A stretch of 52,169 bases of DNA from Alistipes sp. (GTDB lineage Bacteria > Bacteroidota > Bacteroidia > Bacteroidales > Rikenellaceae), in NCBI GenBank assembly GCA_017483225.1, contig JAFULF010000016.1, positions 1 to 52,169 on the forward strand. The letters are read 5' to 3'. The notes beneath the pieces are model-generated. The model searched no databases, was not told the origin of the DNA, and saw only the letters and a program-made list of their open reading frames with translations. Shown in pieces: positions 12,134 through 37,450 of the stretch (within the stretch, counting starts at the first letter, position 1; each line of letters starts with the position of its first letter). The translations under genes were made by a program, and so were the position numbers.

Positions 12134-12187
12134 GGCTATGATGCAGAGTGTATTGTGAGCACGCTCCCCACACTCTGCATCATAGCC
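12134..12187. other. Long hairpin with conserved-type loop (fMet locus)
   Basis: A perfect 18-bp stem (GGCTATGATGCAGAGTGT at 12134-12151, complement at 12170-12187) has an 18-nt loop ATTGTGAGCACGCTCCCC. CAAC just before and GTTG just after can extend it past a 2-nt bulge. The loop resembles those of the hairpins at 27995-28054 and 37395-37450. It is too far from a T-run to be a simple terminator. Confidence 0.7.
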
Positions 12188-12350
12188 TTGTTGCTCTGCA
12201 ACATAGCCCTCACCTCGGCATAGCGTGTATGGCCCTGCTTACTTAATACAGAGGTTGCGTGGATAAAAGAGTGTTTATTGCTCGGCTTTCAGCCTGCGCT
12301 TGTTGTATCCCCGCTTCGGCTTCGCCGTTCGAGTCCCACTCCCGCTACTA

Positions 12351-12387
12351 AACAAGAACGGAACATTTTAGGTGTTCCGTTCTTGTT
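12351..12387 (+). terminator. Second terminator downstream of the tRNA-fMet 3'-end copy
   Basis: AACAAGAACGGAACA (12351-12365) pairs perfectly with 12373-12387 over 15 bp, loop TTTTAGG, followed by TTGTTTG. It begins three bases after the distal tRNA 3'-end copy. Confidence 0.8.
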
Positions 12388-12412
12388 TTGTTTGTGGGGT
12401 GGGGCGAGAAGC

Positions 12413-12608
12413 AGAGCGCAACGTAAAGGTTGTTAAGGGTTATTAAAGGTGATTAAGGGAAGCGCAGGCGGTTTATGGTGAGGCTGTACAAGTTCGCCAG
12501 CATATTGCGCACCATTAACAACCCTTAATATCCCTTAACTCCCTTAATAACCCTTAACCTCGTGCGCCACCCTTTGCGCTCTCCTTACCCTCCCTTATCG
12601 TTGCGCTT
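12413..12608. repeat. Dispersed 10-bp-phased palindromic element, A-type copy (inverted)
   Basis: The same element as 6795-6990 in the opposite orientation. GAGCGCAACGTAAAGG opens it. A purine arm with GTTAAGGGTT, ATTAAAGGTG and ATTAAGGG follows in 10-bp steps. The core around CTGTACAAG (12470-12492) matches 6911-6933 exactly in reverse complement. Then come CATTAACAACCCTTAATATCC and further CCCTTAA steps, ending near TTATCGTTGCGC. No ORF is supported in 12388-12661. Confidence 0.8.
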
Positions 12609-12661
12609 GCGGTTTGTTTCGGCGTGATATTTGGAACATAGGTCGATGAATCAAAATCATT

Positions 12662-13249
12662 ATGCCTATGAAACGAAAATTACTCATTATCTCCACACTG
12701 CTGCTCTTTGGTGCTATGTGCGCCGTGGGCTATACGCAGTCGGTCAAGGGTGCAGGTGCCGACAGCGGCACGGCAGAGAGCCGTCAGGCACAGCGTGAGC
12801 AGCGACACAAGATGCGTGAGGAGCGCCGTGCGCAACGTCTGGCCGAGTATGAACGCTACCTCGACTCGCTCGTGCTGTCGCACCAGTTCCAGTTTATTCC
12901 GCAGGATATACAGCAGCAGCCCGCAGGGCCTACACGCCAACTCAACAACCCCAACTTCCAGCTTGCGATATGGGGCAGTGAGGTGGATGTATGCCTGCCC
13001 TACATCAAGGGTGTTACGCCGCCGTACTACTACGTGGTGCTGAACTACACGCTCCCCTCGGTGTCGAACTACCTGACGGAGCAGACGCACGACGGCTGGG
13101 TGGTGTCGTTCGATACCTCGCTATACTCGGTGACGGACTACCACTTCTCGCTCAGCATCTACACCTCGTCGGGCAGTGCCACGCTGACGATATCCACCTC
13201 GTGGTATCCCGATGTGGAGTATGACGGAACAATCATAAGCATCAACTGA
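12662..13249 (+). CDS. Secreted DUF4251 protein
   Basis: 195 residues with a signal peptide (MKRKLLIISTLLLFGAMCAVG; the codon at 12668 is an equally good start). A charged coiled stretch (REQRHKMREERRAQRLAEYERYLDS as separate short helices) is followed by the DUF4251 beta-rich domain: SHQFQFIPQDI, DVCLPYIKGV, WVVSFDTSLY and STSWYPDVEYDGTI. The function is unknown; the domain is common in periplasmic proteins of Bacteroidales. Its stop overlaps the start of a second, shorter relative (TGATG), so the two are translationally coupled. Confidence 0.8.
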   Translation: MPMKRKLLIISTLLLFGAMCAVGYTQSVKGAGADSGTAESRQAQREQRHKMREERRAQRLAEYERYLDSLVLSHQFQFIPQDIQQQPAGPTRQLNNPNFQLAIWGSEVDVCLPYIKGVTPPYYYVVLNYTLPSVSNYLTEQTHDGWVVSFDTSLYSVTDYHFSLSIYTSSGSATLTISTSWYPDVEYDGTIISIN

Positions 13250-13794
13250 TGATGTGCCGTTTGCTCACCGTCGCCTTGTTGAGTGTTGTGGCGGTGGTCG
13301 CAACACCACACTGCGTCTCGGCTCGCAGAGGCTCTCGTGGCGGAGATGCCTACGTGTCACGTCACGAAGCCCGTGCCGAGGCCTCGATGCGCACCATCGA
13401 CTCGCTCGTGCTGTCGCAACGCTACCTCTTCCGTCCGATAGTGATGCAGAATCCCGAATTGGGCTCTACGAGAGATATTTACGAGTACGACTACTACGTA
13501 GATGTCGCCTCGGACTACCTCTATCTCTGTCTGCCCGTGGAGTTTGTCAGTATGAACATCTTCACGGAGCAGTTCGATACCTCCTTGTCGCACTACTCGC
13601 TGCGTGAGGAGGGGGAGTTTCGCCACGTACTCTTCACGCTCGACCACGGCACCGAGGAGTGGGCGGTGGAGATGGTTGTCGATGTGACAAATGCTCGTAC
13701 ACAGCTCGCTATCTCCACGCCGCAGGGGGTGATGCGCTACCTCGGAACGCTCTCTGCGCCGGAAAAGTCGGCAGGAAGAGCAGATTCTCAATAG
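13249..13794 (+). CDS. Secreted DUF4251-like protein, diverged tandem copy
   Basis: 181 residues with a signal peptide ([25 protein letters not shown]). After an Arg-rich start the sequence [19 protein letters not shown] parallels the upstream protein's SLVLSHQFQFIPQDI, and LYLCLPVEF parallels VDVCLPYI. It therefore looks like an old tandem duplicate that has diverged. The function is unknown. Start codon ATG at 13249 overlaps the preceding stop. Confidence 0.75.
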
Positions 13795-13801
13795 TTTTTA
13801 C

Positions 13802-13809
13802 TATCTTTG
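13802..13809 (+). promoter_or_regulatory. -7 box (TATCTTTG) for ispF
   Basis: TATCTTTG lies 22 bp before the ispF ATG, just after the stop of the DUF4251-like gene. No good TTTG is seen at the -33 distance. Confidence 0.55.
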
Positions 13810-13831
13810 TCCCTATATAAAGGATAAAGGT

Positions 13832-14314
13832 ATGAATTTCAGAATTGGTCACGGTTATGATGTCCACGCACTGGGTGAGGGGCTGCGCCTCGTACTCGGT
13901 GGCGTGGATATTCCGCATACGAAGGGGTGCATTGCCCACTCTGACGGCGATGTGCTGCTGCACGCCATCTGCGACGCTCTGCTGGGGGCGTTGGCGCTGG
14001 GCGATATAGGCAAGCACTTCCCCGACACCTCGGCGGAGTTCAAGGGTATAGACTCCCGACGGCTCCTCGAAAGGGTTGTCGGGATGCTCCACGAGCGAGG
14101 CTACCGCATCGGGAACATAGACTCCACGATTGCGATGCAGCGTCCGAAGTTGCGCCCGCATATCGAGCAGATGCGTGCCAACATTGCGGAGTCGGCGGGT
14201 GTCGATGCGGAGTGCGTGTCGGTCAAGGCGACCACCACCGAGCACCTAGGCTTCGAGGGCGAAGAGAGGGGCGTATCGGCAACGGCCGTGGTGTTGATAT
14301 ACAGAGAATCATAA
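13832..14314 (+). CDS. ispF: 2-C-methyl-D-erythritol 2,4-cyclodiphosphate synthase
   Basis: 160 residues, the normal length. It forms the cyclic diphosphate intermediate of the MEP isoprenoid pathway in the cytoplasm. Zinc-binding and family motifs are present: [12 protein letters not shown] at the start, [22 protein letters not shown] (His and Asp ligands), [10 protein letters not shown], and the C-terminal [13 protein letters not shown]. pepD follows 12 bp later. Confidence 0.97.
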
Positions 14315-14326
14315 AAACAGATAGAT

Positions 14327-15778
14327 ATGGCTACAATTAGAGATTTGCAACCACAGCTTGTGTGGGAACTTTTTGATGATATTACACGTGTGCCCCGCCC
14401 GTCGAAGCACGAGGAGCAGATGACGGCATTCTTGGAGGCGTTTGCTGCCAAGCACGGCATCGAGTGCCACAAGGACCGGATAGGCAATGTGGTTATGCGC
14501 AAGCCCGCTACCAAGGGCTATGAGGGTCGCCCGACGGTGATTTTGCAGGCGCATACCGATATGGTCTGCGAGAAGAACTCCGACGTGAAGCACGACTTCT
14601 TCACCGACCCTATCCGCACCCGCATCGTGGATGGCTGGGTTATGGCCGAGGGTACGACGCTCGGTGCCGACTGCGGCATAGGCGTTGCTGCGGCATTGGC
14701 GGTGATGGTTGACCCTGCGGTTGAGCACGGCCCCGTGGAGGCACTCTTCACCGTGGATGAGGAGACGGGTCTTACCGGAGCATTCAACCTCGGCGAGGGG
14801 ATGATTTCGGGCAAGTACCTCATCAACCTCGACTCGGAGGATGATGGCGAGCTCTTTATCGGCTGTGCGGGTGGCGTGGATACCCTCGCTACGTTCAAGT
14901 ATAAGCGTGAGGCTGCACCTGCCGACTACCTCTTCTATCGTGTTGATGTGTCGGGACTTACGGGCGGTCACTCGGGCGACGATATAGATAAGGGACGTGC
15001 CAACTCCAACAAGCTGCTTGCCCGTCTGCTCGTGCAGGCGCAGGAGCTGTGCGGGGTGCGCCTCTCGACCTTCGACGGCGGCAACCTGCGCAACGCCATA
15101 CCACGAGAGGCCTATGCCGTGGTGGCTGTGCCGCCGCAGCACAACGAGGCGTTCGAGAACCTCGTATCAGCCTTCGCTGCGGATGTGAAGGAGGAGTTCC
15201 GCTTTACGGAGCCCTCTCTGCGCCTGACGCTTGCGCCGAGCGAGCCTGCCGCACTGGTGGATGACGCATCGCAGAGGGCGCTGCTTGCCGCTCTGGTGGG
15301 CCTTCCGAATGGCGTGCTGGCGATGTCGTTTGCCCTGCCAGGTTTGGTCGAGACCTCGACAAACCTCGCCTCGGTGAAGTTCTCGGGCGAGGATACTGTC
15401 GTGGTGACAACCTCGCAGCGCTCCTCGTTGGAGAGTGCAAAGCTATATGCCAAGGAGTCTGTGGCATCGGTGTTCAGGTTGGCAGGTGCCGAGGTGGAGC
15501 ACTCCGACGGCTACCCGGGCTGGACCCCAAATCCGCAGTCCAACCTCTTGGAGTGGTGCAAGAGCAGCTACTTGACCCTCTTTGGCGTGGAGCCGAAGGT
15601 GAGAGCCATACACGCAGGCTTGGAGTGCGGACTCTTCCTCGAAAAGTACCCGCACTTGGAGATGGTGTCGTTTGGCCCTACGCTGCGTGGCGTGCACTCG
15701 CCCGACGAGCGTATAGAGATAGCGACCGTGGATAAGTTCTGGCGACTGCTTCTCGATGTGTTGAGAAGGGTAGAGTAA
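14327..15778 (+). CDS. pepD: Xaa-His dipeptidase (aminoacyl-histidine dipeptidase, M20C)
   Basis: 483 residues, the usual length. It is a zinc-dependent cytosolic dipeptidase of the PepD/M20C family that hydrolyses dipeptides such as carnosine. Metal-site motifs are LQAHTDMVCEKN (His/Asp), TLGADCGIG, and VDEETGLTGAFNL with the catalytic glutamate. INLDSEDDGELFIGCAGG and GGHSGDDIDKGRANS are also typical. It lies in a run of co-oriented genes from ispF to dus. Confidence 0.95.
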   Translation: MATIRDLQPQLVWELFDDITRVPRPSKHEEQMTAFLEAFAAKHGIECHKDRIGNVVMRKPATKGYEGRPTVILQAHTDMVCEKNSDVKHDFFTDPIRTRIVDGWVMAEGTTLGADCGIGVAAALAVMVDPAVEHGPVEALFTVDEETGLTGAFNLGEGMISGKYLINLDSEDDGELFIGCAGGVDTLATFKYKREAAPADYLFYRVDVSGLTGGHSGDDIDKGRANSNKLLARLLVQAQELCGVRLSTFDGGNLRNAIPREAYAVVAVPPQHNEAFENLVSAFAADVKEEFRFTEPSLRLTLAPSEPAALVDDASQRALLAALVGLPNGVLAMSFALPGLVETSTNLASVKFSGEDTVVVTTSQRSSLESAKLYAKESVASVFRLAGAEVEHSDGYPGWTPNPQSNLLEWCKSSYLTLFGVEPKVRAIHAGLECGLFLEKYPHLEMVSFGPTLRGVHSPDERIEIATVDKFWRLLLDVLRRVE

Positions 15779-15799
15779 TAAGTTGGGATAGAGGCTGTT

Positions 15800-16696
15800 A
15801 TGCATATCTCGTCACACTCCATACGCACAGCGTCGATGCCCTTGGGTATGATTGTCGGAGCACTGCTCTGCCGACAGATTGTTGCGCTGGATACGTGGTG
15901 CGAGGGGATGCTTACCCCCGTGCTGATATTTACGCTGCTCTTCTTTACCTTCTGCCGTGTCGATGTGCGCAAGATGCGCCCGACGATGATGCATCTGTGG
16001 CTGCTCGTGGCGCAGGTGACGTGCAGCATAGCCATATACCTGCTGCTGCAACCCCTCGGGGAGACCATTGCTCAGGGAGGAATGATTTGCGCCCTGGCTC
16101 CCGTGGCAATGGCTGCGGTGGTCATCGGCGGAATGCTCGGGGCTAAGGTGGAGACGATGGCGACATACAGCCTTATATGCAACATCGCCACGGCCTTTGT
16201 CGCCCCCGTGATTCTCTCCTATGTGGGGAGCGGGGAGTGCTCCCTGTGGCAGATTCTGGCCAAGGTTGCGCCGCTGCTCGTAGCACCCTTTGTGGCTGGG
16301 CAGCTCTGCCGATATGCCGTGCCGAGGGTGGCGGGGTGGTTTGCCTCCCACTCACGCCTCTCGTTCTACGTCTGGCTGGCATCGCTGGCGGTGGTTATGG
16401 GGCGCACGACAGCCTTCATCATCGACCACGGCACCGAGCATAGCACGTTGGAGCTGGCTCTGGCTGCGGTGGCGGGTGTTATATGCATCGTGCAGTTCAC
16501 GCTCGGCCGCTACATAGGCCGCCGATATGGCGACGTGGTGGCGGGGGGTCAGTCGCTCGGTCAGAAGAATACGGTGCTGGCGGTGTGGATGGCGCAGTCG
16601 TTCCTCGACCCGCTCTCGTGTATCGCCCCGACGGCATACATCGTGTGGCAAAATATTGTTAATTCCTATCAACTTCACAAACAGAAAGATATATGA
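15800..16696 (+). CDS. BASS-type (bile acid:sodium symporter family) transporter
   Basis: 298 residues, almost wholly hydrophobic, with about nine to ten predicted membrane helices. The C-terminal signature GGQSLGQKNTVLAVWMAQSFLDPLSCIAP contains the polar crossover region typical of the bile acid:sodium symporter superfamily. The bacterial members move organic anions or other solutes with sodium. The actual substrate is unknown; bile acids are possible in a gut organism but are not shown. Its stop overlaps the start of dus by 4 bp (ATGA). Confidence 0.82.
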   Translation: MHISSHSIRTASMPLGMIVGALLCRQIVALDTWCEGMLTPVLIFTLLFFTFCRVDVRKMRPTMMHLWLLVAQVTCSIAIYLLLQPLGETIAQGGMICALAPVAMAAVVIGGMLGAKVETMATYSLICNIATAFVAPVILSYVGSGECSLWQILAKVAPLLVAPFVAGQLCRYAVPRVAGWFASHSRLSFYVWLASLAVVMGRTTAFIIDHGTEHSTLELALAAVAGVICIVQFTLGRYIGRRYGDVVAGGQSLGQKNTVLAVWMAQSFLDPLSCIAPTAYIVWQNIVNSYQLHKQKDI

Positions 16697-17715
16697 AGAT
16701 AGCCGACATCGAGCTGCGTGAGCGTGCACTGTTTCTGGCACCTATGGAGGATGTCACCGACCCCTCGTTCCGCTATATGTGTAAGCGCTTTGGTGCCGAT
16801 ATGGTCACTACCGAGTTTATCTCCTCGGATGGCCTCATACGTGATGCGTGGAAGTCCCGTGCGAAGCTCAATATCTCCGACTATGAACGCCCCGTGGGCA
16901 TACAGATATACGGCAACCAGATAGAGCCTATGGTCGAGGCAGCACGTATCGCCGAGACGGCAAACCCCGATGTTATAGATATCAACTTCGGCTGCCCGAT
17001 GAAGAAGATTGCCGGCCGAGGTGCAGGCTCGGGTATGATGCGTGATGTGCCGCTTATGGTGGAGATGACACGCCGCATTGTGCAGGCGGTCAAGAAGCCC
17101 GTGACGGTCAAGACACGCCTCGGCTGGGACGACGAGACGAAGAATATCGAGGAGATTGCCCTCCGCCTGCAAGATGTGGGCATCGCTGCGCTGACCATCC
17201 ACGGCCGCACCCGCTGCCAGCTCTATCGTGGCGAGGCGGACTGGACCCTCATCGGGAAGATTAAGAATAACCCCGCCGTGCATATCCCCATTATCGGTAA
17301 CGGCGACATCGACTCGGCCGAGAAGGCGAAGCAGATGTTTGACCGCTATGGCGTTGATGCTGTGATGATTGGCCGTGCGACATACGGCCGCCCGTGGATA
17401 TTTCGGGAGGTGCGCCACTATCTCGATACGGGGGAGCTGCTGCCGCAGCCGTCGGTCGTGGAGCGTGTGGCTATCGCCAAGGAGCACCTCGCCAAGTCGG
17501 TGGAGGTCAAGGGCGAGAGGGTAGGAGTCTTCGAGATGCGCCGCCATCTCTCCAACTACTTCAAGGGTCTGCCGAACTTCAAGGATACACGAATGAAGCT
17601 CGTGACGCTTACCGACGTTGCCGAGTTGCAGGATACCATCTCCTCCATCGCCGACCGCTGGGGCGACTTCGACGTGAGCGAGTGCGTGCCACCATCCCTC
17701 TCGCACGATATCTAA
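16693..17715 (+). CDS. dus: tRNA-dihydrouridine synthase
   Basis: 340 residues. It reduces specific uridines in the tRNA D-loop using FMN and NADPH. It shows the TIM-barrel family markers APMEDVTDPSFR (start), VGIQIYGNQ, DINFGCPMKKIAGRGAGSG with the catalytic cysteine, VKTRLGWDD, TIHGRTRCQLYRGEADW and GNGDI. DusB-type by overall pattern. It is translationally coupled to the transporter gene. Confidence 0.95.
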   Translation: MKIADIELRERALFLAPMEDVTDPSFRYMCKRFGADMVTTEFISSDGLIRDAWKSRAKLNISDYERPVGIQIYGNQIEPMVEAARIAETANPDVIDINFGCPMKKIAGRGAGSGMMRDVPLMVEMTRRIVQAVKKPVTVKTRLGWDDETKNIEEIALRLQDVGIAALTIHGRTRCQLYRGEADWTLIGKIKNNPAVHIPIIGNGDIDSAEKAKQMFDRYGVDAVMIGRATYGRPWIFREVRHYLDTGELLPQPSVVERVAIAKEHLAKSVEVKGERVGVFEMRRHLSNYFKGLPNFKDTRMKLVTLTDVAELQDTISSIADRWGDFDVSECVPPSLSHDI

Positions 17716-17730
17716 ACAAGGTGCAGGAGG

Positions 17731-18080
17731 GCTTAACGGAGCGCAGGCTTAAAGTCAATTAAGGTCAAGTAAAGTCGAGTAAGGTCGCTCCTTCGGAGCT
17801 GCGCAACAGACTTGGCGCAACATTAGGGAAATTAAGGATATTAGGGAATTTAGAGAGCGCAAGGTTATTCTCACTAAACTCCTTAAACTCATTAAATTCC
17901 CTTTTGCGCAGACTTAAAGGTTATTAAAGGTTATTAAAGGTTATTAAGGGGAACGCAGGCGGTTGGTGTAAGTCCGTACAAGTCCGCAACCTCTTGCGCA
18001 CCATTAACAACCCTTAATAGCCCTTAATATCCCTTAACCTCGTGCGCCATCTTTTGCGCCCACCTGCCCTCCCCCTCCTC
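17731..18080. repeat. Compound 10-bp-phased palindromic element (B-type plus A-type)
   Basis: The first half (about 17740-17910) matches the element at 5195-5415. GTC recurs at 10-bp steps, then GCTCC-TTC-GGAGC, GCGCAACAGACTTGGCG, and complementary purine and pyrimidine arms. The second half (about 17905-18075) matches the A-type copies. It has three tandem AAAGGTTATT units of exactly 10 bp, core GTCCGTACAAGTCCG, then CACCATTAACAACCC and more CCCTTAA steps, ending in GTGCGCCA. It fills the gap before parA. No ORF fits. Confidence 0.8.
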
Positions 18081-18156
18081 GTGCGTTTTTTTTGCATCAT
18101 CAGCCAAGAAAGTTGATGTTTTGTGCTGTGGATTTTCTCGTTTCGGTTTATTTTAC

Positions 18157-18164
18157 TAATTTTG
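18157..18164 (+). promoter_or_regulatory. -7 box (TAATTTTG) for the parAB operon
   Basis: TAATTTTG lies 84 bp before the parA start. The -33 position has a T-rich TTTTC rather than TTTG, so this may be a moderate promoter. Confidence 0.55.
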
Positions 18165-18247
18165 TCCGAGTATTTGCGTGGACGAGGGGTGATGATGCGA
18201 ACTCGCCGCCACGACAAAACCGAAAAACAAAAGGAAGGGAGCAAGTT

Positions 18248-19018
18248 ATGGCAAAAGTAGTTGCTTTGGCAAACCAAAAAGGAGGTGTCGGCAAGACCAC
18301 CACGGCAATAAACCTCTCGGCATCCATCGCCCTGCTGGGCAAGAAGGTGCTGCTGCTGGATGCGGACCCGCAGGCAAATGCCACGTCGGGGTTGGGATTC
18401 GACATCAACCTTGACGGCATATATGAGTGTATAACAGGCGAGCGCAAGGCGGAGGAGGTGATACTCAAAAGCAAGGATGTGAAGAACTTATGGGTGTTGC
18501 CGTCGAGCATTCAGCTGGTGGCGGCAGATACCGAGTTGCCGTCGATGGAGGATGCCCACCACGTCATCAAGCGCATCATCGACAGCGTGCGTGACCGCTT
18601 CGACTACATATTCATCGACTGCTCGCCATCGCTCGGCTTCACGACGGTAAACATCCTCACGGCGGCCGACTCGGTGCTTATTCCCGTGCAGTGTGAGTAC
18701 CTCGCATTGGAGGGGCTGAGCAAGCTGCTCAACACCATCAAGATTATCAAGGGCGGGCTCAACCCTGCGCTCGAAATCGAGGGCTTCGTGATGACGATGT
18801 ATATGCGCAACCGCCTGAACAATCAGGTTGCTGGTGAGGTGCGAGAGCACTTCGGCCCTCTGGCCTACGACACAATAATTCAGCGCAATATCCGTTTAGG
18901 AGAGGCACCCTCACACGGCAAGCCGATAATGCTCTACGATGCCTCGGCGACGGGGGCGACCAACTACCTGCTGCTGGCGAAGGAGTTTTTGAAGAGAAAC
19001 AGAAAAAAGAGAGTATAA
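18248..19018 (+). CDS. parA: Chromosome-partitioning ATPase ParA/Soj
   Basis: 256 residues from MAKVVALANQKGG. It is an ATPase that drives origin segregation with ParB. The deviant Walker A KGGVGKTT is at residues 11-18, the second Walker motif is LLDADPQANATSG, and FIDCSPSLGFTT follows. The frame is open upstream to 18092, but that region contains the promoter and the ATG at 18248 gives the canonical N-terminus. parB starts 3 bp after its stop. Confidence 0.95.
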   Translation: MAKVVALANQKGGVGKTTTAINLSASIALLGKKVLLLDADPQANATSGLGFDINLDGIYECITGERKAEEVILKSKDVKNLWVLPSSIQLVAADTELPSMEDAHHVIKRIIDSVRDRFDYIFIDCSPSLGFTTVNILTAADSVLIPVQCEYLALEGLSKLLNTIKIIKGGLNPALEIEGFVMTMYMRNRLNNQVAGEVREHFGPLAYDTIIQRNIRLGEAPSHGKPIMLYDASATGATNYLLLAKEFLKRNRKKRV

Positions 19019-19021
19019 GAT

Positions 19022-21145: not shown

Positions 21146-21155
21146 CCTTCATCCT

Positions 21156-27814: not shown

Positions 27815-27830
27815 GGGTGGAAGATGGATT
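27815..27830. repeat. Stray copy of a tRNA-His 3' end
   Basis: GGGTGGAAGATGGATT matches 37480-37496 (the tRNA-His acceptor and T-arm end) with one G missing. It lies between the Fic gene and tRNA-Arg, ending the non-coding segment that follows tRNA-Arg on the minus strand. The same sequence ends the equivalent segment at the tRNA-His locus (37282-37298). Confidence 0.6.
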
Positions 27831-27994
27831 GACTTCGCTGCGCTCGTCTTTCTCGCACGAGACCTCGGATATAAAAGCGAACAAAGCCGTATGGTGTGCG
27901 GGATTGCCGCAGTCGCTGCGCTTATTCTGCGGCTTTCCCTTGGGCTCCTCGGATATAAACAAACATTGATGGTAAGTTCTGCAAAGCAGAATAT
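27831..27994. other. Non-coding segment with short internal repeats
   Basis: CTCGGATATAAA occurs at 27874-27885 and again at 27948-27959. Words of the type TCGCTGCGCT occur at 27834-27843 and 27913-27922. GCCGCAG and CTGCGGC enclose the second word. Similar CGCTCCGCT words occur in the segment after tRNA-His. An open frame crosses the region but runs into tRNA-Arg, so I do not call a gene. Confidence 0.5.
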
Positions 27995-28054
27995 CTTTTG
28001 CAATATAAGCAGTTGTAAGTGTGCAAGCACCCGCAACTGCTTATATCACAAAAG
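27995..28054. other. Long hairpin with conserved-type loop (Arg locus)
   Basis: The inner stem ATATAAGCAGTTG (28003-28015) pairs perfectly with 28034-28046. After a 2x2 internal loop (CA/CA), CTTTTG (27995-28000) pairs with CAAAAG (28049-28054). The 18-nt loop is TAAGTGTGCAAGCACCCG. The loop resembles those at 12152-12169 and 37415-37430, while the stems are unrelated. The outer arm overlaps the T-run of the tRNA-Arg terminator. Confidence 0.75.
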
Positions 28055-28075
28055 CCACCCCATACGGAGTGGCTT
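28050..28075 (-). terminator. Terminator of tRNA-Arg
   Basis: On the minus strand AAGCCACTCC, loop GTAT and GGGGTGGCTT (G:T pairs tolerated) are followed by TTTT. It is 27 bp beyond the tRNA. Confidence 0.75.
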
Positions 28076-28102
28076 GCCTATGATGTTTGTTTGCGTCGCT
28101 CG

Positions 28103-28176
28103 TGATCTCGGCGGGATTCGAACCCACGACCCACAGCTTAGAAGGCTGTTGCTCTATCCAACTGAGCTACGAGACC
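28103..28176 (-). tRNA. tRNA-Arg (anticodon TCT)
   Basis: The minus strand gives acceptor GGTCTCG/CGAGATC, D-arm TAGCTCAGTTGGATAGAGCA, anticodon loop CTTCTAA between ACAGC and GCTGT, and T-arm GTGGGTTCGAATCCCGC. It is 74 nt with discriminator A, and CCA is not encoded. Anticodon TCT reads AGA and AGG. Confidence 0.94.
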
Positions 28177-30121: not shown

Positions 30122-30982
30122 ATGTTTTCAATTATTGTGTGCTCCATCCGACCGGAGCAGGCTGCGGCGCTTGAACAGAATATCGCCTCGACAATCGGGG
30201 TGTCGTATGAGTTTATAGTTTATGACAATAGGGCTGCGGGCAAGGGTATCTGCGCCGTCTATAACGAGTGTGCCCGCCGTGCCAAGTATGACTATCTCTG
30301 CTTTATTCACGAGGATATAGCTTTTCATACGCAGGATTGGGGTCGGGAGATTGCGCAAAAGCTCTCCGAGCAGGATTGTGGCGCAATAGGCTTTGCGGGA
30401 GGTACGTCGAAATACCCGTACCCGTATGGTTGGCAGAGCATACGTACATTCACCTGCAAGAACTACATCAGAGGTTCGCTCGGCGGAGGCTCCTCGTTGC
30501 GTAAGTCGAGAGAGGAGGGTGCCTACTCGCAGGTGGTTACTCTGGATGGTATGGCGCTGATGGTGAGGCGTGATGTGTGGGCGGAGTGCAACTTCGATGA
30601 GGTGACCTTCACGGGCTTCCACTCCTACGACACGGATTTTACCACGGCACTCTTTTGTGGCGGCCGACGTAACTACGTATGCAACAGCGTGCTTATCGAG
30701 CACTTCTCGACCGGCTCCTTCTCGACGAAGTGGTACGAGAGCGTGAAGCGCTATCTTGCCAAGTGGGGTGAGCGTCTGCCTCTGTTTGTCGAGCCGAAAC
30801 ATACGGTGCGACAGATAGCCCGTCTGGCTCCTCGTGTTGAGGCGTTTGCCTTGAAGTATCTGCTTCGACACGGACTTGTGGAGCGGGCCGAGGCGGTGGC
30901 TATGGTTGATGACTTCTGCGCTCGTCATCCGTTTGCCATACAGGGATTGTTGATGAGATTGAGGTTATGCAAAACAGAGTAG
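30122..30982 (+). CDS. Glycosyltransferase-like GT-A protein (StrF/Glyco_tranf_2_5 type)
   Basis: 286 residues beginning MFSIIVCSIRPEQAAALEQN. The pattern IHEDIAF places an Asp where the nucleotide-sugar metal site normally is. GAIGFAGGTSKYPYPYGW, LDGMALMVRRDVWAECNFDE and SYDTDFTTALFCGGR fit the family. It probably adds a sugar to a cell-surface glycan. It starts 26 bp after the dehydrogenase and 10 bp before a DUF5672 gene, so the latter two are probably co-transcribed. Confidence 0.83.
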   Translation: MFSIIVCSIRPEQAAALEQNIASTIGVSYEFIVYDNRAAGKGICAVYNECARRAKYDYLCFIHEDIAFHTQDWGREIAQKLSEQDCGAIGFAGGTSKYPYPYGWQSIRTFTCKNYIRGSLGGGSSLRKSREEGAYSQVVTLDGMALMVRRDVWAECNFDEVTFTGFHSYDTDFTTALFCGGRRNYVCNSVLIEHFSTGSFSTKWYESVKRYLAKWGERLPLFVEPKHTVRQIARLAPRVEAFALKYLLRHGLVERAEAVAMVDDFCARHPFAIQGLLMRLRLCKTE

Positions 30983-30992
30983 ATACAATTAT

Positions 30993-31781
30993 ATGTCACA
31001 CATCAAAGTTAAAGTAGTTGTTCCGATATATACCGAGCGCCTTGAAGGTAGAGAGTTGCTCTCGTTCCGCCATAACGCCGAGGTGCTGCATCGCTATCCT
31101 ATGGCGATTGTTGCGCCCGAGGGGTTGAATGTGGATGCTGTGGTGGCGGAGGCTCCACAGTGTGAGGTGGTGCGTGTTACGAGGGATTGGCTCGGTGGTA
31201 ATGGCATTGCCGGGTATAATAGAATGATGCTCTCGAAGGAGTTCTATGAGCTCTTCTCTGACTGTACCTATATCCTTATCTGTCAGCCTGATGCTTGGAT
31301 TTTTAGGGATGAGTTGGAGCAGTGGTGCGATAGGGGATTCGACTATGTTGGTGCGCCGTGGCCGAAGCGTAAGCGATACGATATGCCGATTGTGAAGCAG
31401 TACCTGTGGCTGCGCAAAAAGCTCTTCTCACGCCCCGGCAGACTTATGCGTCAGGACTACTTCAACAAGGTGGGTAACGGAGGCTTGTCGCTCCGCCGTA
31501 TCGGGGCCTTTGCTGAGGCGTGCGACCGCTACCGTGATGTGATAGAGGAGTTCAAGGTTCATCGTGGCACGCTTTGGAATGAGGATTGGTTCTGGGCACT
31601 CATCCCCAAAGAGTTCTCTTATCCGACATTTGATAAGGCGCTCGGATTCTCGTTTGATGTCTATCCGAGGCGTTGCCATACGCTCGCCGAGGGGCATCTG
31701 CCGATGGGGTGCCACGGCTGGTTCAAGCGACGCAACCTTCCGTTCTGGCAACCGATAATCGAGGGTGGCAATGAAAAATAA
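30993..31781 (+). CDS. DUF5672 protein (glycosyltransferase-like)
   Basis: 262 residues starting MSHIKVKVVVPIYTERL. Family patterns include YNRMMLSKEFYELFSDCTYI, CQPDAWIFRDELEQW, GFDYVGAPWP, KVGNGGLSLRRI and NEDWFWALIPKEF. DUF5672 members are fold relatives of glycosyltransferases and sit in surface polysaccharide loci. The specific role is unknown. It follows the GT-A gene by 10 bp. Confidence 0.85.
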   Translation: MSHIKVKVVVPIYTERLEGRELLSFRHNAEVLHRYPMAIVAPEGLNVDAVVAEAPQCEVVRVTRDWLGGNGIAGYNRMMLSKEFYELFSDCTYILICQPDAWIFRDELEQWCDRGFDYVGAPWPKRKRYDMPIVKQYLWLRKKLFSRPGRLMRQDYFNKVGNGGLSLRRIGAFAEACDRYRDVIEEFKVHRGTLWNEDWFWALIPKEFSYPTFDKALGFSFDVYPRRCHTLAEGHLPMGCHGWFKRRNLPFWQPIIEGGNEK

Positions 31782-31790
31782 TTCGCTCTT

Positions 31791-31822
31791 TTTGCGAATT
31801 GTGAATAAAATTGCTATATTTG
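31791..31822 (+). promoter_or_regulatory. Promoter of the secreted protein pair
   Basis: TTTG at 31791-31794 and TATATTTG at 31815-31822 are 20 bp apart, a full consensus. It lies just after the DUF5672 stop. Confidence 0.85.
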
Positions 31823-31866
31823 TATGGGATAAAGTATGATTTTATTCGAATAAAAGACCTATAACA

Positions 31867-33024
31867 ATGAAAATGACAACACTCTTTAAGGGTTTGACCG
31901 CTTTTGCCCTGGCGATGATGCTCTGCTGTTCGGCAGACGCTTTCGCTGCAAAGAAGCCGAAGAAGGAGAAGATTACCGACCCTCGCCTGCTTACCGTTAT
32001 GAAGATGGGTAAGGTTGCGAAGGAGTCGCAGTTTGTAACCAGAGGCACAGCCCTCAAAACCGCTCACAGCTCTGTGCAGGGCTTCGATGTGGTCAATGGA
32101 GGTGCCGAGATTTGGTACTCGCAGCCGGGTCAGACAGCCAAGTTGCAGCAGGGCCTTACCAAAATTCACGAGAACTACGTGGTGCGCCACGTGGGCAATC
32201 GTCGTGAGCTGATGACCCTGCGCTACTTCGGTAATGCACACAGCCTCTGTGTCGAGCGTACCAACGCCGGCGACTATGTTTGGGTGGCAGGTAACGCTAC
32301 CCGTCACGCCAAGAAGGGGCACTATATGCGCACTCGCACGCTCTCCCGCATCCCGTTTGAGGTGGGTGCCGAGTACGATAAGGGCTATGCCGGCGAAACC
32401 TACTATATGGGAGGCGAGTATATCTACCCTGCATTGCAGACCGAGCAGGATATGATTGGTATGGCTACCCACTTGAAGGGCGACTGGACATTCAGCATCT
32501 ACTCTCTGTCGGAGGCACGTGCGATGCCTGATACCGAGTTGAAGGTAAAGGTTGCCTACAAGGGCGAGAATATCGGCGAGGAGACCGAGACTGCCATCCG
32601 CACCTTCAAGGGTAAGGATTTGAGCGAACTCGAACCTATCACCAGCTTCACGGTGAAGAAGCCGGAGGAGGGTAGCAACCCTGCCAAGGATGTTCTGCAC
32701 TATGCGTTCCGTGCTTGGGACTTCGACAAGGACTATGTATATTTCTTGGAGGGCGCACACAACAAGAGCAACTATAACGCCAATGGCCCGTCTGTCGGCT
32801 ATATCACGGTCTTTGACCACGCAGGTCGTGTCGTGCTGCCACGTCGCCGTATCGGCGTTGTGGGCGACCAGGTCATCCTCGAAGTGCTCGGCATCACCCC
32901 TACGGGATGTGCCCACATTGCAGGCTTCAAGATGAAGGGTAACACGGCGTACCTCTGCCTTGCAACTCACGCCAAGAGCGGCGAGAAGAAGGGCTGGCGC
33001 TCGGTTGTCGTTAAGTACGAATAG
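31867..33024 (+). CDS. Secreted protein of unknown function, probable beta-propeller
   Basis: 385 residues with a signal peptide (MKMTTLFKGLTAFALAMMLCCSADAFAA). The rest is rich in short beta strands with repeating aromatic/glycine patterns (EIWYSQPGQTAKLQQGL, LMTLRYFGNAHSLCVERT, DYVWVAGNATRHAKKG, YFLEGAHNKSNYNANG). This recalls propeller folds and, weakly, the helveticin J-like family. No catalytic motif stands out. It is followed 24 bp later by a secreted FAD-dependent oxidoreductase and likely shares its promoter. The function is not assigned. Confidence 0.6.
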   Translation: MKMTTLFKGLTAFALAMMLCCSADAFAAKKPKKEKITDPRLLTVMKMGKVAKESQFVTRGTALKTAHSSVQGFDVVNGGAEIWYSQPGQTAKLQQGLTKIHENYVVRHVGNRRELMTLRYFGNAHSLCVERTNAGDYVWVAGNATRHAKKGHYMRTRTLSRIPFEVGAEYDKGYAGETYYMGGEYIYPALQTEQDMIGMATHLKGDWTFSIYSLSEARAMPDTELKVKVAYKGENIGEETETAIRTFKGKDLSELEPITSFTVKKPEEGSNPAKDVLHYAFRAWDFDKDYVYFLEGAHNKSNYNANGPSVGYITVFDHAGRVVLPRRRIGVVGDQVILEVLGITPTGCAHIAGFKMKGNTAYLCLATHAKSGEKKGWRSVVVKYE

Positions 33025-33048
33025 ACTAACTGATAAAACTGACAGAAT

Positions 33049-34932
33049 ATGAAATCTATCTTAAAAGTGGTGGCTGCGCTCCTTGCGGGAGTTATGCCCC
33101 TTACGGCCTCTGCGCAGCTGCTCGTTGAGCAGACTCCGCCTGTGAAGCCTATGCTTACCGAGCAGAACTCGACGGTTAAGAAGTCGGTGGAACTTACGGC
33201 CGATGTCGTAGTCTGCGGTGGTGGCCTTGCGGGTGTCTGCGCCGCAGTCTCTGCGGCACGTCACGGTGCGAAGGTTGTGCTGGTGCAGGACCGTCCGGTG
33301 CTTGGCGGTAACGCATCGAGCGAGATGCGTATGGGTATCGTCGGCGCAAAGACCGACGAGACGCAGGAGACGGGTATCTTGGAGGAGATGCAGTTGCGCA
33401 ACTTCTACTACAATCCTCTGCAACGCTACACGATGTGGGATGATACCATCTACTCGACGGTTATTATGGAGCCGAATATCAAACTTCTGCTCAACACCTC
33501 GGTTAATGATGTGGTTATGAATGGTGAACGTATCGCTGCGGTAAAGGCTTGGAATACAAACGCCTACACCGAATATACCATCCACGGAACAATCTTTGCG
33601 GATTGTACGGGTGACGGTATCCTCCGCCTCTCGGGAGCGAAGTTCCGCAAGGGCCGTGAGCTGCCGGATGAGTTCAACGAGAACTATTTGCAGGAGGGTG
33701 GCGACAGCAAGACGATGGGTAACTCTATCCTCATCCAGCTCCGCAAGACCGATGTCGATGTTCCGTTCAAGGCTCCGGAGTGGGCATACCACTTCACCGA
33801 TGCCGACTTCGACTACACGGTTCCTAAATCGACAATTCCGGGCTTGAAGTTCAACTATAAGCGCATCTATAATCCGCACGACAACAACTTCTGGTGGTGC
33901 GAGTTTGGCGGTAACTTCGACACTATCGCCGATGCAAACGACATCCAGTTCGAGCTTAAACGTATCGTCTATGGTATCTGGGAGTATATGAAGAACCACC
34001 CCGACGGTCGTGGTAAGGGCTACGAGTTGGATTGGATTGGCTCACTGCCGGGCAAGCGTGAGAATACCCGCTTTGTCGGCCCGCATATCCTCACACAGCA
34101 CGACGTGACAAGTGGTGGCCACTTCCCTGACGTTGTGGCTTATGGAGGCTGGACCCTCGACGACCACCATCCGGATGCGTTCCACAAGAAGGGCCGTATC
34201 TCGGTAGAGTACGATGTGCCACAGGGCTTCGGTATTCCTTTCGGCGTTCTCTACTCTGTGAATGTTCCAAACCTGATGTTTGCGGGTCGTGATATCTCGG
34301 CGACACATATGGGCCTCTCGGCAACACGTGTTATGGCAACTTGCGCCCTGCTTGGTCAGGCGGCAGGTACCGGTGCTGCGGTGGCTATCGAGAAGGGTAT
34401 CGACCCTGCCGAGGTGCACAAGGAGCACATCGCACAGGTGCAGGCTATGCTCGAAGATGACGACGTTATGCTGCCATATCGCTGGCGTAAGGTTTCGGAC
34501 CTGACCGCCTCGGCGAAGGTGGATGAGGGTCTCGAAATCCTCCGCAACGGTATCGACCGTAATTGGGAGGGCAAGGACAACGGCGTGTGGGTTGCTCCCG
34601 AGCAGACCACTATCCTCTATACGTGGAAGAAGCCTGTGACGGTGAGCGGTGCACGTATGATTTTCGACTCGGAGTTGAAGGTGCGCAGCAAGCGTATGCG
34701 TAAGTTGGAGGCTACCACCGAGCGTGTGAAGATGCCGTCGGTGCTCACCAAGGGCTTCCGTGTTGAGGCTCTGGTAGGCAAGGAGTGGAAGACCGTGTAT
34801 GAGGATAAGGATAACTACCAGCGTCTGCGCAAGGTGGCTTTCGAGCCTGTCGAGACCAAGCAGCTCCGCCTCGTCGTGACCGAGACTTGGGGCGCAGAGA
34901 AGGCGCACGTGTTTGCCTTTGATGCCCTGTAA
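33049..34932 (+). CDS. Secreted FAD-dependent oxidoreductase (FAD_oxidored family)
   Basis: 627 residues with a signal peptide (MKSILKVVAALLAGVMPLTASAQ). The FAD-binding start is DVVVCGGGLAGVCAAVSAARHGAKVVLVQDR, then GGNASSEMRMG, and FADCTGDGILRLSGAKFRKGRE. The fold closes with NLMFAGRDISATHMGLSATRVM and CALLGQAAGTGAA. The C-terminal 130 residues look like a beta-sandwich accessory domain. Relatives occur in polysaccharide-use loci and act on sugars or uronic acids, but the substrate here is unknown. Export of a flavoprotein is notable. It is coupled to the unknown secreted protein before it. Confidence 0.85.
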   Translation: MKSILKVVAALLAGVMPLTASAQLLVEQTPPVKPMLTEQNSTVKKSVELTADVVVCGGGLAGVCAAVSAARHGAKVVLVQDRPVLGGNASSEMRMGIVGAKTDETQETGILEEMQLRNFYYNPLQRYTMWDDTIYSTVIMEPNIKLLLNTSVNDVVMNGERIAAVKAWNTNAYTEYTIHGTIFADCTGDGILRLSGAKFRKGRELPDEFNENYLQEGGDSKTMGNSILIQLRKTDVDVPFKAPEWAYHFTDADFDYTVPKSTIPGLKFNYKRIYNPHDNNFWWCEFGGNFDTIADANDIQFELKRIVYGIWEYMKNHPDGRGKGYELDWIGSLPGKRENTRFVGPHILTQHDVTSGGHFPDVVAYGGWTLDDHHPDAFHKKGRISVEYDVPQGFGIPFGVLYSVNVPNLMFAGRDISATHMGLSATRVMATCALLGQAAGTGAAVAIEKGIDPAEVHKEHIAQVQAMLEDDDVMLPYRWRKVSDLTASAKVDEGLEILRNGIDRNWEGKDNGVWVAPEQTTILYTWKKPVTVSGARMIFDSELKVRSKRMRKLEATTERVKMPSVLTKGFRVEALVGKEWKTVYEDKDNYQRLRKVAFEPVETKQLRLVVTETWGAEKAHVFAFDAL

Positions 34933-34962
34933 TAGGGGAGTCGTTATACGACCTCAATAGAG

Positions 34963-35174
34963 ATGAAGCTGTCTAACAAGGCTACTTTGTCGTTATACTC
35001 GCCCTCAAAATGCTCATTTACGCCGAGTAAACTGCGCTTTTTCGGGCTTCGTAAGGTTGCGATTAAGGCGAATGAAAACAAATGTATATTTTTTTCTGAG
35101 CCGGAGCAACCAAAAGCCATCGTAGATGGATTAAGCCTAAAATTAGCACTTGTTATACAACTTCTGAAAAGAAA
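34963..35174. repeat. Probable dispersed intergenic repeat with open frames on both strands
   Basis: On the minus strand the peptide SPKKRSLLGVNEHFEGEYN can be read, and the plus strand is also open (from MKLSNKATLSLYSP). Similar peptides are, from memory, common between genes in Bacteroidales, which suggests a repeated DNA element rather than a gene. It lies against the conserved-loop hairpin at 35175. I could not verify copy number. Confidence 0.4.
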
Positions 35175-35205
35175 GAGCGTGTCCGAAAACTTGTTGGACA
35201 CGCTC
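35175..35205. terminator. Hairpin terminator with GAAAACTTGTT loop
   Basis: A 10-bp stem GAGCGTGTCC (35175-35184) pairs with 35196-35205. The loop is GAAAACTTGTT, and ATCTTTTTG follows on the plus strand. The loop resembles the one at 41794-41803. It serves converging genes (FAD oxidoreductase and S1/P1 nuclease). Confidence 0.75.
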
Positions 35206-35229
35206 ATCTTTTTGGTGTGGGTGTATCTG

Positions 35230-36048
35230 CTATTTGAATACCTCGTTGAGCACCTTTGCCAGACGATAGCCGGCTTTGCGCACCAACTCCTCTGCCAGAG
35301 GCTGATACTCGTTAAGATATAGACGCTTGTCGAGCTTCGCTCCCTCCTTTATAGCGTGTACGTGGCGTGAGGAGCGTGCAATATCCTCGCCCCAGTCGTA
35401 GAGGTCGCCCGTGGTCACCTCGGCAATCTGCCTCTTGCTGAACGTGTCGAGGAAGTAGGAGAAGTCGCTGTATCCCCACGGGTTGCGTGTGGCAACAATC
35501 TGCGTGTCCCACAGCGAGTGGTAGCGCACGGAGTCCTTGCCGAACTTGACCTTGTAGTAGCCGATGGTCTGGTCCTCCGGATAACGAATGTGCTCCGGGC
35601 AGTGCATATCGCCCACGAAGTGTACGATGAGGGCTATGGCGGTCATACGTGCCGAGTCGGTCATCTCACGATGGTTTGCCTTCAAAGTGGCAGCAAGCTG
35701 CTCGGTCTGGTAGATGCAGTTCTTGACGAACTTGTCGCCCTTGCGGGTGCCACGAAATACGGTGCAGTCGTCGTTTGCTTCGAAGGTGTGAGGGTAGGTG
35801 GTCAGACGCTTGGTGTTCGACGGCTCGAAGCCTACGTCGAGCAACAACTCCGGCTTGTAGTCGTCGGCATACGAGGCGTAATAGACGATGGACTTGCCAT
35901 CGAGATACTCTGTAATCTGCTTCTTGGCCCTCTTGGTCAAGTGGTTCTCGGCAATCTTTGCCACGGTGGCGTGAGCCAAACGCCCCCACGCAAAGGAGGT
36001 GTTGCAGGCAAGCATCGTAGCCACACAGATAAGGATAAACTTTTTCAT
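35230..36048 (-). CDS. Secreted S1/P1-type zinc nuclease
   Basis: 272 residues with a signal peptide (MKKFILICVATMLACNTSFA). The mature chain starts with W21 (WGRLAHATVAKIAENHL), which in this family supplies a zinc ligand. Further ligands are expected in YYASYADDYKPE, ALIVHFVGDMHCPEH (HxxxDxH) and YHSLWDTQIV. It degrades single-stranded DNA or RNA and 3'-nucleotides outside the cytoplasm, probably for nucleoside and phosphate uptake. It has its own consensus promoter (36077-36108). Confidence 0.92.
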   Translation of the reverse strand: MKKFILICVATMLACNTSFAWGRLAHATVAKIAENHLTKRAKKQITEYLDGKSIVYYASYADDYKPELLLDVGFEPSNTKRLTTYPHTFEANDDCTVFRGTRKGDKFVKNCIYQTEQLAATLKANHREMTDSARMTAIALIVHFVGDMHCPEHIRYPEDQTIGYYKVKFGKDSVRYHSLWDTQIVATRNPWGYSDFSYFLDTFSKRQIAEVTTGDLYDWGEDIARSSRHVHAIKEGAKLDKRLYLNEYQPLAEELVRKAGYRLAKVLNEVFK

Positions 36049-36076
36049 TGGTTAAAATTTGTAGGTTATTTGAGCG

Positions 36077-36108
36077 CAAAGATAGTCAAATTCGACAGTT
36101 CTGTCAAA
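36077..36108 (-). promoter_or_regulatory. Promoter of the S1/P1 nuclease
   Basis: Minus strand: TTTG at 36105-36108 and TATCTTTG at 36077-36084, 20 bp apart. The -33 element overlaps the region just before the stop of the upstream gene. Confidence 0.8.
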
Positions 36109-36118
36109 TTGTCGTGGA

Positions 36119-37168
36119 TTATATGAAATCAAAAGTCAGATGTATCTCCCTAATTATGTTGTCGCTATCGTATTGGAAATATATTTCGCAGAAATAACTC
36201 GAATCATCACTGCTTTGCCAATATTTAGCACCTACATATTCGTAGTCGCCACTATACTTGTGGTCGCTGAGCCGTCCTCCTATATTTGCCAATTTAGAAA
36301 TATTATCTCCCACTCTTACGCCAAAGCAATTTGGCACTTTGTATCTCGGGCTCTTTATGGTGATATATGGGACAAATCCATCTAACCACGTGACGTGGTC
36401 CTCACCGAAGTATAATTCATAGGCGAGGAATTCGTCCCCCTTCTGCGGCTCTTCTACTCGGGTCAGCGGCGCATCCATAATACGGGATATAGCCTCTATG
36501 GATGGATAATCTTGACCGAGCAGCAGTATTCTGTTCCCACTGCAAACGCCTACCTCCGAGGATGCCATCGAAGCAACGACATTCGCCGAAACAACAATTT
36601 TGGTTATCCGCCCTTTGGCGTTATAGAAGAATTTGACGGCGTAGTCTTTCAACTCTTTATGGTCCGGTTGCCAATATCGGAAGCCGATATTGTTGCCTGC
36701 TTGTTGCTTAACGTCAATGGACTCTCCCTCTAAATATCTGTCCAGCAGCTTGATGTCTGCCCCGACACGTATGCGAGGATTGCCAAACCATAGCCGCTTC
36801 GACTTTATATGGGCATATCTGAAAATATAATCCTCCAACAACACGACATCCTCCCCTGCGTATAAGAGGTGGGTGCCGGGTCGGGAGGCATTGCTGCTTT
36901 TTGGCCCGCTCACCTTGATATCGGGGAGGTCGAGTATCTCTTTGGCTCTGGAAACACTATATTTCTCGCCCCATATCAACCCGTTTACGGAGATTTGGTT
37001 GATTCTCTGATTCGTGGCCTCGCCACCTTGCGATAGGGATGCCCTCTGCTCTGCGCTTGTTGCAACATCCGCCCCGCACGGGATGTAGCCTCCACATAAT
37101 AATATTGTCGCCGAGCATATCGCACACACCGCAACAACAATCGTGACAATGATTAACCCTCTCTTCAT
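36119..37168 (-). CDS. Membrane-anchored protein of unknown function with a duplicated domain
   Basis: 349 residues. The N-terminus is a membrane helix (GLIIVTIVVAVCAICSATILLC). Two related halves follow. One runs about 65-200: DLPDIKVSGP, LLEDYIFRYAHIKSKRLWFGNPRIRVGADIKLLDRYLEG, IGFRYWQPD, VKFFYNAKGRITKIVVS. The other runs about 218-349: MDAPLTRVEEP, WLDGFVPYITIKSPRYKVPNCFGVRVGDNISKLANIGG, VGAKYWQSS, EIYFQYDSDNIIREIHLTF. The matching order points to an internal duplication. I do not recognise the family. Codon use is somewhat more mixed than in neighbouring core genes. Confidence 0.72.
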   Translation of the reverse strand: MKRGLIIVTIVVAVCAICSATILLCGGYIPCGADVATSAEQRASLSQGGEATNQRINQISVNGLIWGEKYSVSRAKEILDLPDIKVSGPKSSNASRPGTHLLYAGEDVVLLEDYIFRYAHIKSKRLWFGNPRIRVGADIKLLDRYLEGESIDVKQQAGNNIGFRYWQPDHKELKDYAVKFFYNAKGRITKIVVSANVVASMASSEVGVCSGNRILLLGQDYPSIEAISRIMDAPLTRVEEPQKGDEFLAYELYFGEDHVTWLDGFVPYITIKSPRYKVPNCFGVRVGDNISKLANIGGRLSDHKYSGDYEYVGAKYWQSSDDSSYFCEIYFQYDSDNIIREIHLTFDFI

Positions 37169-37281
37169 AACCTATCACCCATTAAGAAACATATTGTAGC
37201 GCCATAAAGTTAATAATAATTCTCGGCATAAGCAAAAAAGTATCGCCAATAGGCTTTTGTTGGGAGGCTCTGTTGCTGGGG

Positions 37282-37298
37282 GGGTGGAAGATGGGATT
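37282..37298. repeat. Direct copy of the tRNA-His 3' end
   Basis: A 17-nt exact match to 37480-37496, lying 198 bp beyond the tRNA 3' end on the minus strand. Between the copies lie the tRNA terminator, a hairpin and inverted-repeat-rich DNA (GCAGACT/AGTCTGC near 37309-37324; CTTTCAA/TTGAAAG near 37364-37380). This is the same layout as at tRNA-fMet. No gene is supported between 37169 and 37480. Confidence 0.65.
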
Positions 37299-37394
37299 GG
37301 CTACTACGCAGACTTGTAGTCTGCTCCGCTTAACGCCTTTCCCGACTGCTCGCCGCAGGGGCGCTTTCAAAGATTGAAAGTCGCTCCGCTACTA

Positions 37395-37450
37395 TTTTTT
37401 GTTCTATATAGTCCTTGTGTGCAAGCCCACGGACTCTATACAACAAAAAA
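37395..37450. other. Long hairpin with conserved-type loop (His locus)
   Basis: The inner stem TATATAGTCC (37405-37414) pairs with 37431-37440 with one mismatch. Outside a 1x1 mismatch, TTTTTTGTT (37395-37403) pairs with AACAAAAAA (37442-37450). The loop is TTGTGTGCAAGCCCAC. The outer arm overlaps the T-run of the tRNA-His terminator. Confidence 0.75.

Follow-up and report, generated by a model that had tools for sequence, protein, structure and literature searches.

Hairpins behind Alistipes tRNA genes belong to small cassettes bounded by copies of the tRNA 3' end: candidate mobile units at tRNA T-arms

Why should long hairpins stand behind several tRNA genes with their loops alike and their stems unrelated? 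A 52,169-nucleotide stretch of DNA from Alistipes sp. (family Rikenellaceae; assembly GCA_017483225.1, contig JAFULF010000016.1, positions 1 to 52,169 of the forward strand), here called the window, raises this question. A preliminary description of the window had reported such hairpins behind the genes for tRNA-fMet, tRNA-Arg and tRNA-His. All three hairpins are present (coordinates in Table 1), and they are three of the nine hairpins of such score in these 52 kb. They had been placed about 45 to 75 bp behind the tRNAs; the measured distances lie within that range for fMet (69) and Arg (47) and below it for His (29). We found that the hairpin is one part of a cassette of 100-300 bp, flanked by the tRNA on one side and by a further copy of its 3' end on the other. 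We propose, at about an even chance of being right, that these units are small mobile cassettes that dock at tRNA T-arms through folded single strands, their movement and the recombinase involved being inferred.

Loop hairpins and the cassettes that hold them

We asked whether conserved loops on changing stems are found outside the window. In the genome to which the window belongs, the loop pattern GTGNGCANGCNC had 26 matches, compared to 13 for a reversed control, and a long stem accompanied it only at the three window sites; at a fourth site, behind tRNA-Cys, the stem has decayed. For a genus-wide test, hairpins were chosen on the stem alone (score of at least 9) in 81 regions behind tRNAs, which gave 43 hairpins. 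The motif GC[AG]AGC, in either orientation, was present in the loops of 30 of these 43, while 0.76 were expected from shuffled loops, and the 8-mers adjoining the 43 loops comprised 40 different sequences. The claim that loops are kept while stems change is therefore valid well beyond the window, and copies beyond chance are plentiful behind tRNA genes. The fMet loop of the window (GCACGC) is itself one of the 13 misses. It had also been remarked that all three window loops share one reading direction on the plus strand. This turned out to be a coincidence: measured along the tRNA, the motif ran forward in 26 hairpins, in reverse in 3 and both ways in 1, and the Arg and His hairpins of the window are two of the three reversed cases (the Arg loop reads CGGGTGCTTGCACACTTA in the direction of its tRNA). 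A pairing between loop and linker (GTGAGCAA with TTGCTCAC), examined by eye, was dropped because variants of the loop were not tracked by the linker.

The complete unit has a regular order. The tRNA is followed by a terminator, the loop hairpin (a variable stem with a GCAAGC-type loop), further hairpins that often lie within an enclosing stem, an end domain and finally a copy of the tail of the same tRNA. In DNA folds of the His and Arg units, an outer stem surrounds the terminator, the loop hairpin and a third hairpin, and the end hairpin comes next. A direct tail copy scoring at least 30 followed 7 of the 36 tRNAs of the window's own genome (the best shuffles reached 24), with 99 to 262 bases between tRNA and copy, which leaves no room for a normal gene. 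Across the tRNAs with the class B motif described below, 45 of 59 had a tail copy no more than 450 nucleotides away. Taken as an element in its own right, the hairpin was thus real and conserved in its loop but incomplete, as the element is the whole cassette, with a copy of the tRNA 3' end on either side.

A folded end domain fitted to its tRNA

Ahead of the second fMet tail lies a segment that is found again across the genus; it represents the commonest end domain, class B, in which we distinguish four helices, P0 to P3. P0 is formed by a strand of the cassette paired with the T-stem strand of the tail copy itself. The fit of P0 was tested on 53 of 65 units, taken for a P1 run of 8 bp with TT ahead of it, which means that P1 was selected for in this set; 46 of the 53 (seven without a recognisable T-loop were left out) were aligned together with the window to give 47 sequences. 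RNAalifold recovered P0, P1, P2 and the base of P3 from this alignment unaided. With the named structure, 93.6% of the cells were paired, compared to 75.1% after shuffling and 36.5 to 45.6% when the structure was slid; 188 cells had changed on both sides (57.8 in shuffles) and the covariation score was 0.458 (0.133 in shuffles). Covariation was strong, in that none of 500 shuffles was as high in four of five measures. Kinship of the sequences inflates such tests, and therefore the slid control and the permutation of P0 weigh more. In the latter, the 5' strand of P0 formed 210 of 265 possible Watson-Crick pairs with the T-stem of its own tRNA, compared to a mean of 155.5 with permuted tRNAs (0 of 20,000 permutations as high), and with one unit per T-stem the fit was 64 of 85 against 47.3 (again 0 of 20,000). 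The acceptor strand fitted the upstream sequence more weakly (258 versus 231 permuted, 0 of 1000) and at no fixed place.

Is this fold selected in RNA or in DNA? G-U pairs are common where RNA folds are selected, and in the tRNA stems of the same loci G-T pairs made up 28 of 420. In P2 we counted 182 Watson-Crick, 0 G-T and 5 other pairs (187 cells), and in P3 of the 33 rows with the short form 149, 0 and 9 (158 cells); all 47 rows gave 199, 5 and 24 for P3 and 178, 16 and 38 for P0. P1, counted without a pairing rule in 63 of the 65 units (one of them, L219, misanchored), had 553 Watson-Crick, 3 G-T and 11 other pairs (567 cells). In the stems of the loop hairpins G-T (11) was no commoner than A-C (15) or C-T (18). 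The near absence of G-U from P1 to P3 points to folded DNA instead of RNA. Two explanations fit, selection for a folded DNA strand or cruciform and template switching that maintains perfect stems, and each of them operates at the level of DNA.

The suggestion that the hairpin might be a processed RNA is hence disfavoured on two grounds: G-U is scarce in P1-P3 and has no edge over A-C in the stems of the hairpins, and the terminator of the tRNA stands at the start of every first cassette. Recognition of a folded or single-stranded form, also put forward initially, is retained as the best explanation. The initial idea of a recombination site that works as a folded strand comes close to what we now favour, except that the hairpin is just part of the cassette. 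In relation to attC sites of integrons, what is observed in the end domain is a structure conserved with covariation and almost without G-U, and a single strand is its presumed substrate.

Distribution, arrays and turnover

If class B domains belong to tRNA-bounded units, where do they lie? A search pattern derived from the segment before the second fMet tail (TTTATTGCTCG, a gap, CTGCGCT) matched at least 120 stretches in a genome collection and 16 in viral contigs. Among the matches listed, to which the following counts for genomes refer, 63 of 70 distinct places in Alistipes and other Rikenellaceae lay behind a tRNA on the same strand and the other 7 at contig ends, while none of 55 places in other genomes and none of 12 in viral contigs lay behind a tRNA. 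Taken together, 63 of 70 Rikenellaceae places stand against 0 of 67 others. A P1 run of at least 8 was present at 64 of 70 Rikenellaceae places, 4 of 55 places in other genomes and none of the 12 viral ones, and the matches in Rikenellaceae stood behind tRNAs for at least 14 amino acids. Viral contigs were rejected as carriers, since their 16 stretches (12 distinct places) had neither a long P1 nor a tRNA.

The covariance model gave a similar picture. Applied to 90 loci, it gave 73 matches, every one of them in the Rikenellaceae set (65 loci, among them most of the model's own sequences), while the 25 control loci had none. In four of the family genomes with matches, 30 of the 35 lay 139-828 nucleotides behind a tRNA on the same strand, three others within 276 nucleotides of a contig start and two further along one array. 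Matches were found in at least 23 of 120 genomes of the family and at least 3 of 22 genera (at least 17 genomes in the own genus, at least 2 and at least 4 in two others); these are lower bounds, because no more than 33 candidates per genome were scored under strict filters.

Cassette units are stacked in tandem arrays. Most are 100-300 bp long and have no space for a gene, but in another genus (L332, genome G166) the second of three units behind tRNA-Leu measures ∼1.5 kb and carries a DUF4932 gene (E-value 3.8e-50), and its start (a GCAAGC hairpin adjoining the T-arm) and end are those of its gene-less neighbour. Possible gene-bearing segments of 0.8 to 3.6 kb that end in 17-18 base copies of a tRNA tail were also seen at L183 (237-1056 behind tRNA-Lys, with an open reading frame of the CAT family), L230 (behind tRNA-Ser, with a WG-repeat protein) and L126 (behind tRNA-Ser), with lipoproteins also listed among their genes. 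Although second tail copies flank them, they were not accepted as gene cassettes: their ends are not clearly of class A (the type at the Arg and His sites) or B.

Three comparisons between genomes bear on turnover. In one relative (G015) the fMet site is empty, and the terminator directly after the tRNA is homologous to the one behind the window cassette, which by this homology is the original fMet terminator. Another relative (G030) has the upstream gene in common with the window (65% amino-acid identity) and a different unit at fMet. One cassette, identical at 190 of 209 bases (91%), lies behind tRNA-Leu (L157) in one genome and behind tRNA-Thr (L209) in another.

The features of the window are given in Table 1. 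ARAGORN found the tRNAs for fMet (+), Arg (-) and His (-) and, in addition, a Leu tRNA that the preliminary description had not used. The fMet class B domain scored 74.9 bits (E-value 1e-17) with model R1, in which this sequence is itself one of the 47, and its P1 has a single T-C mismatch. The stem of the His loop hairpin extends into the T-run of the terminator. At the Arg site the class A end is followed by just 8 bases of the Arg tail (AATCCCGC), and behind a second class A end we noted by eye a His-type tail, AATCCATCTTCCACCC, with 16 of 17 bases of the His tail.

Table 1. tRNA genes and cassette parts in the window
Feature	Position	Strand	Basis and remarks
tRNA-fMet	11988..12064	+	ARAGORN; docking site of first cassette
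fMet tail, T-loop to discriminator	12042-12063	+	
Terminator hairpin and T-run, first element of fMet cassette	12068..12099	+	DNA fold
Small hairpins either side of fMet loop hairpin	12112-12130, 12188-12203	+	
fMet loop hairpin	12134..12187	+	18-bp stem, no mismatch; loop ATTGTGAGCACGCTCCCC
Class B end domain (P0, P1, P2, P3), fMet cassette	12250..12339	+	covariance model R1
Second fMet tail copy	12327..12348	+	22 identical bases
Terminator behind second fMet tail	12351..12389	+	DNA fold; homologue in relative G015
Second class A end at Arg site	27815..27854	-	by eye
Class A end hairpin GGGAAAG...CAATCCCGC, Arg	27898..27939	-	DNA fold
Arg loop hairpin	27995..28054	-	21 bp, 2 mismatches
Terminator hairpin, Arg cassette	28049..28075	-	DNA fold; outer stem arms 28080-28092 and 27957-27966
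tRNA-Arg (TCT)	28102..28176	-	ARAGORN
Second His tail copy	37282..37298	-	17 identical bases
Class A end domain GGGAAAGGCGTTAAGCGG...GTAGTAGCCAATCCC, His cassette	37293..37343	-	DNA fold
His loop hairpin	37395..37450	-	20-23 bp, 3 mismatches
Terminator hairpin, His cassette	37444..37470	-	DNA fold; outer stem arms 37468-37479 and 37369-37380
tRNA-His	37480..37554	-	ARAGORN; tail 37480-37496

Other repeats were noticed near these tRNAs. At L306 (His) and L111 (Ser) the class A domain resembles a separate insert of ∼60 bp, flanked on either side by AATCCC, within the second copy of the T-loop. Behind several Leu tRNAs, namely tRNA-Leu (CAG) in the window (7106-7120 and 7157-7171), L057 and L062, the tRNA 3' end comes back in inverted form after the terminator, and at L157 a longer inverted repeat that includes the T-arm surrounds the class B domain. 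A further dispersed repeat (TTTATGG, AAGGCTGTACAAG, CCGCAACCTCTTGCGCACCATTAAC) lies behind tRNAs of the own genome (window 6880-7000, L042, L045). Ends of insertion sequences (GGCTTAATGGTCAAAAAGAGACC or GGCTTATTGGTCAAAAT) were seen by eye within ∼420 bases behind at least 9 of its 36 tRNAs, often at a contig end (L032, L036, L038, L050, L052, L053, L060, L062 and L063); insertion sequences with these ends seem to favour the neighbourhood of tRNAs.

Possible mechanism, rival explanations and known systems

How could such cassettes move? The proposed substrate is the end domain in folded single-stranded form, with cassette sequence pairing to the tail's T-stem strand (P0), and the enzyme would be a site-specific recombinase, most simply a host Xer-type tyrosine recombinase. 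Strand exchange would take place at the T-loop of the tRNA gene, and the old tail and old terminator would end up behind the inserted cassette; as the cassette supplies its own tail and terminator, the tRNA would stay whole. The loop hairpin may mark the other end of the cassette. In 12 genomes there were 3-9 tyrosine-recombinase matches each, with two strong ones in every genome that are probably XerC and XerD; in one genome that has arrays (G004) there were three, of which one fell below the cut-off. None of 16 genomes had the Y1 (HUH) transposase PF01797, which was detected in 5 of 14 controls, and serine recombinases were absent from 6 of 11 genomes, the window's own included, so that neither is general enough to be the driver. 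The simplest driver is therefore an Xer-type recombinase, or a passing element that acts in trans. The more specific version, in which T-arms are the docking sites, P0 is matched to each tRNA, units with genes are stored behind tRNAs and host Xer proteins drive the exchange with no dedicated integrase, is a tentative one that we hold to be somewhat doubtful.

Several results speak against mobile cassettes. No recombinase dedicated to them was found in the searches for tyrosine (12 genomes), Y1 (16) and serine (11) enzymes, and that cassettes move is something we infer from the comparison of genomes alone. The single clear gene-bearing unit is a small base. Full tail copies in the window exist for fMet and His only, the Arg copy having 8 bases, and in the cassette found behind both Leu and Thr, the copy at the Leu sites is shortened to 12-13 bases. 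Similarity between cassettes was higher within isotypes (median score 101.5 over 136 pairs) than across them (56 over 1944 pairs), and switching between tRNAs is therefore uncommon; the mechanism offers no account of how the acceptor portion of the tail would change along with the isotype. Finally, the fifth covariation measure, further pair types, showed no excess over shuffling (310 of 500 shuffles as high), and the outermost pair of P0 was close to chance (20 of 53).

The units could instead be leftovers of ordinary tRNA-integrating elements such as integrative and conjugative elements (ICEs) or prophages, that is, attL and attR with little DNA between them, retained for the sake of the terminator that the tRNA requires. 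Tyrosine integrases leave such a tail copy, reaching from T-loop to 3' end, and integrase-bearing insertions at tRNA-Gly, Phe and Thr do occur in the genus. We judge this unlikely, however: by eye, five such insertions (L288, L292, L314-L316) have neither the loop hairpin nor a class B or A end, and a covarying end domain shared over 14 amino acids, a P0 fitted to each tRNA and tandem units would be unexpected. For class B this explanation is already hard to hold. The integrase-bearing insertions were also set aside as parents of the cassettes, as no common ends were seen by eye. A structured RNA, a tRNA-like 3' domain of the tRNA transcript with a role in tRNA processing or regulation, would account for the likeness of end domain and tail to acceptor and T stem, and for the acceptor-strand fit. 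It is quite unlikely, given the pair counts in P1-P3 and in the loop-hairpin stems, the terminator ahead of the domain and the reversed loop hairpin in a few units; in addition, Rfam searches of the window and of ten loci gave no family except tRNA at the gathering score.

Local DNA processes, namely tandem duplication of the tRNA tail and correction of quasi-palindromes by template switching that keeps hairpins perfect despite drift, explain variable yet complementary stems, missing G-U pairs and reversed loops. They leave without explanation the conservation of loop motif and end domain between different tRNAs, and the empty site and different unit at one locus, so we think them decidedly improbable. 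A chance likeness of the loops is conceivable for three sites with short loops, but after the genus-wide count of loop motifs its probability is close to negligible.

The attC site of an integron cassette is recombined as a folded bottom strand (PMC8946536). The units described here are like integron cassettes (attC, recombined by IntI) in their tandem stacking behind a fixed docking site, in an end site that keeps its structure and certain unpaired bases while the stems are poorly conserved, in the signs of a folded DNA strand and in at least one gene-bearing unit. In contrast to integrons, docking is at the T-arm of many tRNA genes, the units bring a tRNA tail and a terminator, P0 is matched to the tRNA, and most units are gene-less whereas integron cassettes as a rule carry a promoterless gene. 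No integron integrase platform (intI, attI, Pc) was seen beside the arrays read, the recombinase matches having been judged without an IntI-specific domain test.

Elements that integrate at tRNA genes (ICEs, prophages, cis-mobilizable elements (CIMEs) and tycheposons) duplicate the tRNA 3' end and accrete in tandem. Like them, the cassettes have the tRNA 3' end directly repeated at either border (at the 7 own-genome and 45 class B tRNAs counted above), but they are mostly gene-less, at 100-300 bp the units read are too short for an integrase gene, and one family of end domains serves tRNAs for 14 amino acids. Repetitive extragenic palindromes with their associated tyrosine transposases (REP/RAYT) and IS200/IS605 insertion sequences also keep hairpins at the level of DNA; here, however, the tail is duplicated and the Y1 transposase is missing from all 16 genomes. 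In the literature listings and abstract openings searched, nothing of this design was found. Because there is no integrase platform or gene, most units are gene-less and docking extends over tRNAs for 14 amino acids, we regard the cassettes as a new kind of element, integron-like in its working and docking like a tRNA-integrating element but lacking defining features of both, with a mechanism as apt to prove wrong as right. If this is true, tRNA genes would offer very small DNA cassettes a general port for docking, and recombination of folded single strands, best known from integrons, would have arisen or been taken over in a second setting. It would also explain the crowding of short repeats at tRNA ends in these genomes and the frequent coincidence of these ends with assembly breaks.

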